A DNA stretch of 47,981 nt from Nocardioides pocheonensis. GTDB taxonomy: Bacteria > Actinomycetota > Actinomycetes > Propionibacteriales > Nocardioidaceae. The stretch covers positions 40,501-88,481 of the forward strand of contig NZ_RJSF01000037.1 in assembly GCF_003725535.1 (NCBI RefSeq). The letters are read 5' to 3'. Under the pieces are notes generated by a model. It did no database searches. It was not told the DNA's origin and saw nothing but the letters and a program-made list of their open reading frames with translations. Positions 11,900 through 15,027 of this stretch are shown here, in pieces. Numbering within the stretch: position 1 is the stretch's first letter; each line of letters opens with the position of its first letter. The position numbers and the translations under genes are program-made.

Positions 11900-12904
11900 G
11901 TGGATCTTGCGATCGTGGTGACGGTCGTCGCCGTCGCCCTCGCGTTCGACTACACCAACGGCTTCCACGACGCGGCCAACGCGATCGCCACCTCGGTGTC
12001 CACCCGTGCGCTCACGCCGCGCCTGGCGCTGACGCTCGCGGCGATCATGAACTTCGTCGGCGCGCTCCTGGGTCAGCAGGTCGCCCACACGGTCAGCGAC
12101 ACGATCGCCGTACCGTCGGGCAACCACGGCCTGGTGATCGTCCTCGCCGCGCTGCTCGGCGCGATCACCTGGAACCTCATCACCTGGTACTTCGGGCTCC
12201 CCTCGTCGTCCTCGCACGCCCTCATCGGCGGGTTGGGCGGGGCTGCGCTGGCGGCGGGCGCCACGGTGCACTGGAAGACGATCCTGGACAAGGTCGTCAT
12301 CCCGATGGTCCTGTCGCCGGTCGTCGGCTTCATTGCGGCGTTCCTGGTGATGCTGCTGATCATGTGGGTCTTCCGCCGCCGCAACCCGCACAAGGTGCAG
12401 CGGGGCTTCCGGCTGATGCAGACGGTGTCGGCCGCAGCGCTCGCGCTCGGTCACGGGCTCCAGGACGCCCAGAAGACGATGGGCGTGATCCTGCTGGCCG
12501 TGATTGCGGCCGGCTACTACCCGAGCACCCAGGAGAGCCTCCCGCTCTGGATCGTGATCAGCGCGGCGTCGGCGATCTCGCTCGGCACGTACGCCGGCGG
12601 CTGGCGGATCATGCGGACGCTCGGCCGCAAGATCATCGCGCTCGACCCCCCGCGCGGCTTCTCCGCCGAGTCGGTCGGCGCGGCCGTGCTCTACACGACG
12701 GCGTTCGTCTACCACGCGCCGATTTCCACGACCCACACGATCACCTCGGCGATCATGGGCGCCGGAGCCACGCGGCGCTTCTCCGCCGTGCGCTGGGGCG
12801 TCGCGCGGAGCATTGTCACCGCCTGGGTGCTCACCTTCCCGGCGGCCGGCCTGGTCGCCGCCGCGGTCTACATCGTCATGAAGTTCATCTTCCAGCTGCC
12901 CTGA
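11900..12904 (+). CDS. pit: PiT family inorganic phosphate transporter
   Basis: A 334-residue integral membrane carrier importing metal-phosphate with protons. Both halves of the PiT signature are present: FDYTNGFHDAANAIAT near the N-terminus (about residues 16-31), GLPSSSSHALIGGLGG in the first half, and HGLQDAQKTMG and STTHTITSAIMGAG in the second. About ten hydrophobic segments fit the family. GTG 11900 follows the DUF47 stop by 3 nt; coupling is likely. It gives low-affinity uptake beside the high-affinity Pst system encoded on the opposite strand 1.3 kb away. The two systems converge, with the AbiEi-like gene between them. Confidence 0.95.
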   Translation: MDLAIVVTVVAVALAFDYTNGFHDAANAIATSVSTRALTPRLALTLAAIMNFVGALLGQQVAHTVSDTIAVPSGNHGLVIVLAALLGAITWNLITWYFGLPSSSSHALIGGLGGAALAAGATVHWKTILDKVVIPMVLSPVVGFIAAFLVMLLIMWVFRRRNPHKVQRGFRLMQTVSAAALALGHGLQDAQKTMGVILLAVIAAGYYPSTQESLPLWIVISAASAISLGTYAGGWRIMRTLGRKIIALDPPRGFSAESVGAAVLYTTAFVYHAPISTTHTITSAIMGAGATRRFSAVRWGVARSIVTAWVLTFPAAGLVAAAVYIVMKFIFQLP

Positions 12905-12950: not shown

Positions 12951-13000
12951 GCGTCGTACGGGGACGTGGGACTCCGCGTCGTACGGGGACGTGGGACTCC
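12951..13000 (+). repeat. 25-bp tandem repeat, two full copies
   Basis: Two identical 25-bp units (12951-12975 and 12976-13000; gcgtcgtacggggacgtggg plus actcc) are followed by a third that keeps the first 15 bases and then becomes the left arm of the palindromic element at 13012. The unit therefore looks like a partial, degenerate copy of that arm. Confidence 0.9.
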
Positions 13001-13011
13001 GCGTCGTACGG

Positions 13012-13080
13012 GGACATGCGAATGTCGCGCCCCGGTCACGTGGTGCGCACACCAGCCCCTTCCGCGACATTCGCATGTCC
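13012..13080. repeat. 69-bp bipartite palindromic element, upstream copy
   Basis: Outer arms of 18 bp are perfect inverted repeats (GGACATGCGAATGTCGCG at 13012-13029 and its complement at 13063-13080). Each arm is itself a small hairpin, GACAT-GCGA-ATGTC. The 33-nt spacer contains an inner hairpin TGGTG-CGCA-CACCA. A second copy of the same length lies at 14026. Confidence 0.9.
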
Positions 13081-13167
13081 GGCTACGACGGGAGATGCCC
13101 CGCAGGCTCGCCACGGGGCTGTGGACGGCGCCAGCGGCGGCAGCGACCGATCGGCCACCCTCGGCGG

Positions 13168-14070
13168 GTGGACCTGATCAGCCACGTCACGCTGCTCGGC
13201 GGCGCGTGCACGAGAGCCGTGCTCGTCGAGCGCTGCGGGCGTGCCGCGGTCGATCGCGCGCTGCGTGCGGGCGTGCTGGTGCGGGTGGCGCGTGGGCGGT
13301 ACGCCCTCCGCACCGCCAGTACGGCGGTCACGGCGGCCGCGACCCTCGGCGGGGTGGTCTCGATGAGGAGCGCCGCCCAACGACACGGGTGGGGGCAGAA
13401 GCTCGTGCCGGAGCGGCCGGACGTCACGTTCCCGCGCACCCGCCGGCTGCCGCTCGAGGCCCGGGAGCTGGTCGTGCCGCACTGGTCCGACATCGCCCCG
13501 GAGGACGTCGTCGAGGGGATGACCGGGGTGCGCCGGACCCTGGTCGACTGCATGAGGATGCTGCCGCTCGAGGAGTCGGTCCCGATCGTGGACAGCGCCC
13601 TCCGGGCGGGCGACGTGACCCACGAGGAGCTGAAGGCGATCGCTGCCGGCATGCGTGGGCGCGGACGCACCCGCGCGATCCTCGTGGCTGAGCGGGCGAC
13701 CGCGCGGGCGGCCAACCCCTACGAGTCGACCCTCCGCGCGATCGCCTCGACGATCCCCGGGCTGGACGTGATGGCCCAGCACCCGGTCGAGGTGTCGCCT
13801 GACCTCGTCCTCCACCCCGATCTGGCCGATCCCGTCCTGGGGATCGTGATCGAGGCCGAGAGCTTCGAGTGGCACGGCCGGCGCGCCGCGCTCACGCGGG
13901 ACTGCGTGCGCTACAACACCTTCGCCTGCCGCGGCTGGATCGTGGTGAGGTTCAGCTGGGAGCAGGTGATGTTCGACCCCGCCTACGTCGTGACCGTGCT
14001 GGTGGACGCCGTCGCGCTCGCACGGGGACATGCGAATGTCGCGCGTGGGTCGCCTGCGGCCGCCGCGTGA
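13168..14070 (+). CDS. AbiEi-type N-terminus fused to DUF559/Vsr-like nuclease domain
   Basis: A 300-residue protein. Residues 1-55 form a winged-helix like the AbiEi antitoxin N-terminus (TRAVLVERCGRAAVDRAL, then LVRVARGRYAL). The middle is a linker seen in this group (RPDVTFPRTRRLP; MTGVRRTLVDCMRMLP). The C-terminal third resembles DUF559/Vsr-type PD-(D/E)XK nucleases: Pro-Asp-Leu, then VIEAESFEWHGRRAALTRDC and GWIVVRFSWEQVM. GTG 13168 has only a weak ribosome site, but homology begins there. The last residues (RGHANVARGSPAAAA) are encoded by the left arm and spacer of the downstream 69-bp palindrome. No partner toxin gene is adjacent. Such proteins are annotated as type IV TA antitoxins, but that function is not shown. 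Confidence 0.8.
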   Translation: MDLISHVTLLGGACTRAVLVERCGRAAVDRALRAGVLVRVARGRYALRTASTAVTAAATLGGVVSMRSAAQRHGWGQKLVPERPDVTFPRTRRLPLEARELVVPHWSDIAPEDVVEGMTGVRRTLVDCMRMLPLEESVPIVDSALRAGDVTHEELKAIAAGMRGRGRTRAILVAERATARAANPYESTLRAIASTIPGLDVMAQHPVEVSPDLVLHPDLADPVLGIVIEAESFEWHGRRAALTRDCVRYNTFACRGWIVVRFSWEQVMFDPAYVVTVLVDAVALARGHANVARGSPAAAA

Positions 14071-14094
14071 CCCGACAGCGACATTTGCATGTCC
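14026..14094. repeat. 69-bp bipartite palindromic element, downstream copy
   Basis: The left arm (14026-14043) is identical to the left arm at 13012, and identity extends over 23 bp including flanks (14022-14044). The right arm (14078-14094) differs by one base. Spacer sequence differs from the first copy but holds its own inner pairing GGGTC...GACCC. The element overlaps the end of the AbiEi-like gene, whose TGA is in the spacer. Confidence 0.9.
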
Positions 14095-14240
14095 GGCTAC
14101 GCGGCGGCCACGCGGGGGCACGCCGGCTACGCGGCGCCTGCGCGGCGCCTGCGCGGCGGCACGCCGGGCACGCCGGGTACGCGGGGGGACGCGGCGTACG
14201 CCGGCCAGGGCGCCGACCCGCCGGCGCAGCACGCCGGCCG
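14095..14240. repeat. GC-rich short-repeat tract downstream of pstB
   Basis: The tract between the palindrome and the pstB stop contains ggctacgcggcg twice (14095-14106, 14125-14136), gcggcgcctgc twice in tandem near 14131-14153, and cacgccggg twice near 14159-14177. No coding signal is seen. Confidence 0.6.
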
Positions 14241-14247
14241 CCCCCGC

Positions 14248-15027
14248 TCAGCCGAAGCGGCCGGAGATGTAGGCCTCGGTGGCCTCTTCGTCCGGGACGC
14301 TGAAGATCTTCTTGGTCGGGTTCATCTCGATCAGGCGGCCCGGCTTGCCGGCGCCGGCCAGGTTGAAGAACGCCGTGTCCTCGGAGACCCGGGCGGCCTG
14401 CTGCATGTTGTGGGTGACGATCACGATCGTGTAGTCGGACTTGAGCTCGTGGATCAGGTCCTCGATCGCGGAGGTCGAGATCGGGTCGAGGGCCGAGCAG
14501 GGCTCGTCCATCAGCAGCACCTGCGGCTCGACGGCGATCGCCCGGGCGATGCACAGCCGCTGCTGCTGACCACCCGAGAGCCCCATGCCGGGCTTGTTGA
14601 GCCGGTCCTTGACCTCGTTCCAGAGGTTGGCGCCCTGCAGCGCCCGCTCGACCGTCGCGTCGGCGTCGGAGCGAGACAGCCGCTTGTTGTTCAGCCGCAG
14701 CCCGGCGAGGACGTTCTCGTAGATGCTCATCGTGGGGAACGGGTTCGGGCGCTGGAAGACCATGCCGACCATCCGGCGGACCTCCACCGGGTCGACCGCC
14801 GCGTCGTACAGCGACTGCCCGTCGACGCTGACCTTGCCCTCGACGCGGGCTCCCGGGATCACCTCGTGCATCCGGTTCAGCGTGCGCAGGAAGGTCGACT
14901 TGCCGCAGCCCGAGGGACCGATGAGGGCCGTCACGGAGCGTGCCGGGATGGTCATCGTGACACCCTCCACGGCGAGGAAGTCGCCGTAGTAGATGTTCAG
15001 GTCGGAGATGTCGATGCTCTTGGCCAT
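14248..15027 (-). CDS. pstB: Phosphate ABC transporter ATP-binding protein PstB
   Basis: A 259-residue ABC ATPase driving high-affinity phosphate import. Walker A is GPSGCGKST, the Q-loop [11 protein letters not shown] is diagnostic for PstB, the signature is LSGGQQQR, Walker B is [12 protein letters not shown], and the H-loop is [14 protein letters not shown] 15025-15027 begins [16 protein letters not shown], the family start; the longer open frame upstream is a shadow of pstA. It lies 11 nt downstream of pstA and is last in the pstSCAB operon. Confidence 0.97.

Follow-up and report, generated by a model that had tools for sequence, protein, structure and literature searches.

A nuclease gene and its flanking palindromes in Nocardioides pocheonensis as a probable protein–site pair with clade-specific arms

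Why should a gene for a putative nuclease lie between two copies of the same palindrome? The question is raised by a stretch of 47,981 nucleotides of Nocardioides pocheonensis (contig NZ_RJSF01000037.1, positions 40,501 to 88,481; hereafter the window), in which a gene for an AbiEi-like protein with a nuclease domain is bracketed by two inverted-repeat elements and sits between convergent pit and pstB genes, as an earlier reading made from the DNA letters alone (the sequence-only reading) had recognized. Comparison with relatives shows a clade-specific locus, in which the fusion nuclease often stands between two elements whose arm sequence and spacing are the clade's own. In three families, termed here clade A (that of the window), clade B and the third arm, comparison places further elements in small numbers across the genome, mostly between genes, and in the first two of these the positions vary from species to species. 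We consider it moderately probable that gene and palindromes form a cognate protein–site pair, following the logic of repetitive extragenic palindrome (REP) doublets (REPINs) and REP-associated tyrosine transposases (RAYTs) with unrelated parts. The cognate pairing is well supported by sequence comparison; that the nuclease mobilizes the elements is an inference.

The two elements lie exactly where they had first been placed, and the near-identity of their ends is borne out, as the left arms are identical and the right arms differ at one position. In the left element, the arms GACATGCGAATGTCGC and GCGACATTCGCATGTC stand at a start-to-start offset of 51 bp around a spacer of 35 nucleotides. The right element has the same arms and spacing with a different spacer, and overlaps the 3′ end of the gene: the stop codon (14068–14070) falls inside it, and the last ~15 codons are element sequence. 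The inverted repeat extends outwards past the 69-bp core to about 83 bp (family consensus CGTAC...GTACG). With up to three mismatches, the pattern GGGACATGCGAATGTCGCG has four matches in the window versus 0.04 expected from shuffles. Terminator hairpins are common in convergent intergenic gaps, and the elements might be read as terminators or chance hairpins in G+C-rich intergenic DNA, but this is extremely improbable and already contradicted by that excess, by the fixed spacing and by the bracket controls given below.

The arrangement recurs in relatives. With clade-A genes defined by an identity of at least 57%, a script that allowed arm offsets of 38 to 69 bp placed elements on both sides of the gene at eight of the nine loci with both flanks readable; at the ninth (G011) the flanking elements are degenerate and were recognized by eye only, and a tenth locus (G014) stops at a contig edge. 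Relatives carrying the gene at this locus with no elements, which would have spoken against the sequence-only reading, were not seen among these. All 31 clade-A elements have the 51-bp offset, by script and in an alignment of all 31, one extra script reading at 69 being an overlapping second reading of the L068 element. Their spacers differ yet are more alike than shuffles (51% versus 34%), an indication that whole elements share a common origin. The left and right arms co-vary, with changes on both sides in 12 of 24 pairs, and 85% of cells are paired across the arms, compared with 81% after shuffling and no more than 45% for slid versions. This covariation supports a long inverted repeat and, more weakly, two small hairpins.

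To this we added homologues across a wider range, 85 loci in all. Twenty-five are from the same genus, five of the 30 there (L066, L077, L078, L085 and L086) having been left out for a contig-end flank or a partial gene; the other 60 are full-length loci from outside the genus, taken in E-value order and not at random, three of them with an internal stop. Control windows were drawn from the 60 outside-genus loci only. A direct-match test found brackets at 25 of these 60, against 1.4% of 708 control window pairs. Matched inverted-repeat pairs above a threshold of 47, the 99th percentile of 236 control window pairs (two of which exceed it), were found at 49 of the 85 homologues (13 of 25 in the genus, 36 of 60 elsewhere). 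One of these, L084, was dropped as a likely false pair before arm analysis, and in the remaining 48 loci the upstream and downstream elements, whose spacing was not scored, have spacings equal within 1 bp in 45, versus 10 of 178 unselected controls; of the three exceptions, two show a difference of 11 or 12 bp and the third a difference of 2 bp.

Arms resemble one another where protein identity exceeds 60% and are close to background where it is under 55%, and over all pairs arm and protein similarity correlate with a Spearman coefficient of 0.44, which none of 5,000 permutations reached. Judged from these comparisons, arm sequence follows protein clade. Within this genome, the nearest paralogue, on C43, is only 47% identical and is bracketed by GAACGGGCRCAACCC arms, and the C3 paralogue has no bracket; in G002, G003 and G009 the gene stands at another locus between CGCAGACGCGCGGACACAAGT arms (clade B). 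The conserved feature is two inverted arms at fixed spacing, not a hairpin within the arm: over 21 arm clusters the longest within-arm stem averages 3.4 versus 3.7 in shuffles, by a crude test, and it reaches 5 bp or more in three. The GNRA-type hairpin described earlier (GACAT-GCGA-ATGTC) is peculiar to this clade; as a general rule the hairpin was dropped, since most other clades have no such small stem. Some arms, but not every one, have GTAG at their outer end, with the heads judged by eye.

The palindromes are also found away from the gene. A covariance model of the clade-A element was searched over 24 genomes of the genus, with both-strand matches halved to element counts; positions are those among the matches listed, outside which fall G011 and some positions of G019, G008 and G016. 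Elements are present in all ten genomes with a clade-A gene (nine in this genome, G000; 14 in G015, ten in G007, nine in G006, seven in G001, six in G011, five in G019, four in G021, three in G018 and one in G014), compared with 5 of 14 without it (Fisher p 0.0015). Two of the G001 elements, L029 and L053, could represent a single site present on two contigs. A palindrome strewn at random with no tie to the gene, the outcome that would have undone the sequence-only reading, is not what these counts show. The cassette which that reading proposed therefore stands as a cassette-like pair linked across species by bracket and by genome, and its spread by the nuclease would be a further step. The clade-B arm is paired in the three genomes with a bracketed clade-B gene, giving 34 elements, and has at most one unpaired match in each of the other 21. 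A third arm, GCGTCGGACGACCAGAAGTC, is paired 62–64 bp apart in G208, G226, G161, G186 and G121, where it brackets their genes; pairs away from the gene occur in the first four, G121 has only single arms there, and seven other genomes have unpaired matches only. A cognate palindrome is found in multiple copies almost exclusively in genomes that have its gene, with G017 as the main exception. By hand counts, of the 40 non-bracket clade-A elements in seven genomes, 13 stand no more than 40 kb from the gene, where 0.7 would be expected, compared with only 1 of 28 clade-B elements, so that local clustering is a clade-A feature only.

The spacing suggests what is being read. Clade-B arm offsets, for which 30–120 bp were allowed, are 61–63 bp in 24 elements and 72–73 bp in ten, with none from 64 to 71. 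Because this step of about 10.5 bp is one helix turn, and because the arms of most clades lack an internal hairpin, half-sites in duplex DNA are favoured over hairpins.

In fold comparisons with the PDB, residues 1–178 of the window protein share the AbiEi fold with Streptococcus agalactiae AbiEi (6y8q) and Rv2827c (1zel), including both the winged helix and the AbiEi C-terminal domain. Residues 181–287 match the Vsr/I-Bth0305I-type nuclease fold, in line with the Vsr-like domain first proposed, and carry the EDxHD homing endonuclease catalytic fold with its conserved acidic and histidine residues. The protein is an AbiEi-type DNA-binding module fused to a Vsr-fold nuclease, and is likely to cut DNA. 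Fold matches beyond these two groups were attributed to the sharing of a nuclease or winged-helix fold. A sequence-profile search of solved structures with the protein gave no match, and its Pfam matches (MTES_1575, AbiEi_4 and DUF559) are all under family cut-offs.

We picture a dimer of the protein that would occupy both inverted half-sites in duplex DNA, with the AbiEi-like portion recognizing the arms and the nuclease placed over the spacer or next to the element. A cut at or near the element followed by repair copying would then spread new elements, and the bracketed gene itself would be kept by vertical descent. This dimer is preferred because of the helical step, the arms without hairpins and two precedents from known proteins. 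In the accessible part of one report, the AbiEi operator consists of two 23-bp inverted repeats 3 bp apart, and that of Rv2827c of repeats 13 bp apart (PMC7319586); in that of another, I-Bth0305I appears to dimerize on a target of nearly 60 bp (PMC3943268).

The sites of known AbiEi antitoxins, inverted-repeat pairs bound in duplex DNA, are a smaller version of the arrangement pictured here, and the main rival explanation starts from this likeness. The protein would be an AbiEi-like repressor with many operators: the upstream element would be its operator, the others regulon or looping sites spread by ordinary duplication, and the nuclease domain would have an unrelated role. The AbiEi fold of the N-terminal 178 residues fits, as do the autoregulation of AbiEi antitoxins through paired inverted repeats (as described in the same part of PMC7319586), the upstream element some 80–165 bp ahead of the window gene and the conservation of some sites across species. 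We nevertheless judge it unlikely, as only 9 of 80 elements lie between divergent genes (30 are between convergent and 41 between tandem genes, by rough gene calls), a downstream element accompanies the upstream one, and most positions differ between species. In contrast to AbiEi antitoxins, the protein has an added nuclease domain, its sites flank the gene and also occur in other places, and the arms are much further apart. No AbiEii toxin gene was found beside the window gene, whose neighbours are pit and pstB, the wider genome not having been searched for one.

Element positions differ between related genomes. G003 and G009 are ~85% identical around the gene, and only 4 of the 13 element positions of G003 are common to both, two of them the bracket. 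In the one filled/empty pair that was aligned, G003 element C1:3180444 is missing at the corresponding G009 position, where the G009 flanks match at 85–87%. For clade A, a comparison of flanks covered 53 elements in six genomes; by hand count, 29 of the 41 elements outside a bracket occupy positions that the other five genomes do not share. Some copies are thus old, and many either are not or were lost from other genomes.

The bracketed locus itself bears on the possibility that element, gene and element move as one composite unit, in the manner of an insertion sequence or a free-standing homing cassette, with solo elements as relics of excision. Across 24 pit loci, the clade-A gene follows pit and precedes pstB in eight and lies inverted beside pit in one (G006), whereas pit and pstB are adjacent without it in three (G016, G004 and G022). 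These three are the empty junctions that the sequence-only reading had proposed to look for in relatives, and by eye they hold no clade-A element. Gene-less junctions and a nuclease fold matching a homing endonuclease would suit a composite unit. We hold it to be quite improbable, however, given the distant nearest paralogue, the near-constant position (between pit and pstB in eight of the nine genomes in which the gene is beside pit), the lack of elements at the empty junctions and, examined in clade B only, the lack of a visible target duplication. Homing copies a gene into a target that is still intact; here, unlike with the EDxHD/Vsr-like homing endonucleases such as I-Bth0305I, the gene lies between intact sites, which are dispersed as well.

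Five further pit loci (L337, L346, L347, L351 and L352, in G010, G013, G003, G009 and G008) have another reading frame between pit and pstB; a scan of two of these frames gave weak matches to AbiEi models for each (best E-values 1e-4 and 5e-5). The pit–pstB junction may attract AbiEi-like genes. The remaining seven of the 24 are unreadable or show neither gene. In L341 and L343 (G016 and G004), the gene-less junction holds a different hairpin of ~65–75 bp with arms GGTAGTCCGGAGC..., which may belong to a further class of element or be a terminator.

The closest known parallel to the cognate pair that we favour is REPIN/RAYT. In the accessible parts of two reports (PMC2817692, PMC3116915), RAYT genes are flanked by two repeats, dispersed intergenic doublets are formed of inverted repeats whose spacer is conserved mainly in length, and repeat and gene co-vary. 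All of this has its counterpart here: the gene between two repeats, the dispersed intergenic doublets with spacers conserved mainly in length, and the co-occurrence and covariation of repeat and gene, with exceptions in G017, G009, G008, G016 and G004. The enzyme, in contrast, is an AbiEi plus Vsr-fold nuclease and not a Y1/HUH transposase, the arms have helical-turn spacing and no general within-arm hairpin with a GTAG or GTGG head, and genomes hold 1–14 elements, compared with the 37–427 perfect REP copies reported for Stenotrophomonas in the accessible part of PMC2817692. Because enzyme, arm structure and copy number differ, we do not regard the system as a member of REPIN/RAYT. The GNRA hairpin as key feature is not supported, nor is the REP kinship raised by the sequence-only reading, as no Y1_Tnp gene (PF01797) was found in ten genomes by a search that was positive in 5 of 14 control genomes; a RAYT was likewise rejected as mobilizer.

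The same searches speak to whether the elements are ordinary miniature inverted-repeat transposable elements (MITEs) or REPs moved by a conventional transposase, with bracketing as hitch-hiking. Dispersed intergenic inverted repeats do look like MITEs and REPINs, but the absence of Y1_Tnp from those ten genomes (DDE transposases were not searched for), the absence of visible target duplications from the 34 clade-B elements and the way in which arm sequence tracks the clade of this nuclease make such an origin very improbable.

Several observations weigh against the cognate pair. G017 has 11 elements and no clade-A gene in its assembly; its pit match covers residues 1–148 only and the locus then ends, leaving the pit–pstB junction out of view. 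G009, G008, G016 and G004 carry three, two, one and one elements, respectively, without a clade-A gene. The bracket is not universal, as 36 of the 85 homologues have no matched pair above threshold, and dispersed copies of the C43 arm are no more numerous than chance would give. Copy numbers are low even where the clade-A gene is present. Some positions are old: the site at C23:105446 is common to four species (G000, G001, G007 and G015), and three other clade-A sites are each common to two genomes. Target-site duplications were not found in clade B, where copies may be too old to show them, and presence and absence could reflect loss, with mobilization the step beyond what the sequences record.

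More tentatively, and with slightly more doubt than belief, we propose that these elements represent a new class of bacterial miniature mobile DNA. They would be REPIN-like elements copied by an AbiEi–Vsr fusion that dimerizes on two phased duplex half-sites, independent of the HUH-based REPIN/RAYT and with a specificity that switches repeatedly as the nuclease diverges.

Relatives of the protein are widespread, with profile matches at E-values of 1e-15 or better, some of them weak, in 126 of 197 genomes of the family (taken as Nocardioidaceae). Public sources call them AbiEi-family antitoxin, DUF559 protein or very-short-patch-repair endonuclease, labels that point to a role in defence or repair. 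For dozens of them (48 loci), the comparison provides a predicted DNA target that can be read off the gene's own flanks, so that the biochemistry is directly testable. If the nuclease moves the elements, REPIN/RAYT logic would have arisen twice from unrelated enzymes, and the clades would supply nuclease specificities in a natural series, with long targets already predicted. Among the matches listed in a search of the open-licence literature, no report linked DUF559 or MTES_1575 proteins to dispersed palindromes, which suggests that, within this scope, such a partnership of a nuclease with a small mobile DNA site is undescribed.

The features of the locus are collected in the table; the name pstB for the right neighbour is our assumption.

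Table 1. Features around the bracketed gene, in window coordinates
Feature	Position	Strand	Basis or remark
Left element, full inverted repeat of ~83 bp (69-bp core 13012–13080)	13005..13087	.	Family-model match C37:53505-53587
Right element, same family (69-bp core 14026–14094)	14019..14101	.	Family-model match C37:54519-54601
Gene of 300 amino acids, GTG start	13168..14070	+	AbiEi-like residues 1–178, Vsr/EDxHD-fold nuclease 181–287
pit-type phosphate transporter (Pfam PHO4), left neighbour	11900..12904	+	pit junction conserved in relatives
pstB-type ABC ATPase (Pfam ABC_tran), right neighbour, convergent	14248..15027	-	Pfam match
Two 25-bp tandem copies, CGTCGTACGGGGACGTGGGACTCCG	12952..13001	+	Read directly from the sequence

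Three sub-threshold matches to RNA families were all taken as chance. The 25-bp tandem unit (window 12952–13004) includes the outer left arm of the element (CGTCGTACGGGGAC), and a third, diverged copy starts at 13002 and merges into the outer arm of the left element. At least one copy in this genome is not readable whole, as the further right arm of L021 (G000:C37:36518) adjoins a run of N. Close tandem pairs of elements occur at G000:C37:14921-15164, G000:C37:32198-32402 and G006:C9:196463-196655; in the first of these, the elements at 14921 and 15082 have the first half of the spacer in common and a second half that is little alike, as if recombined inside.
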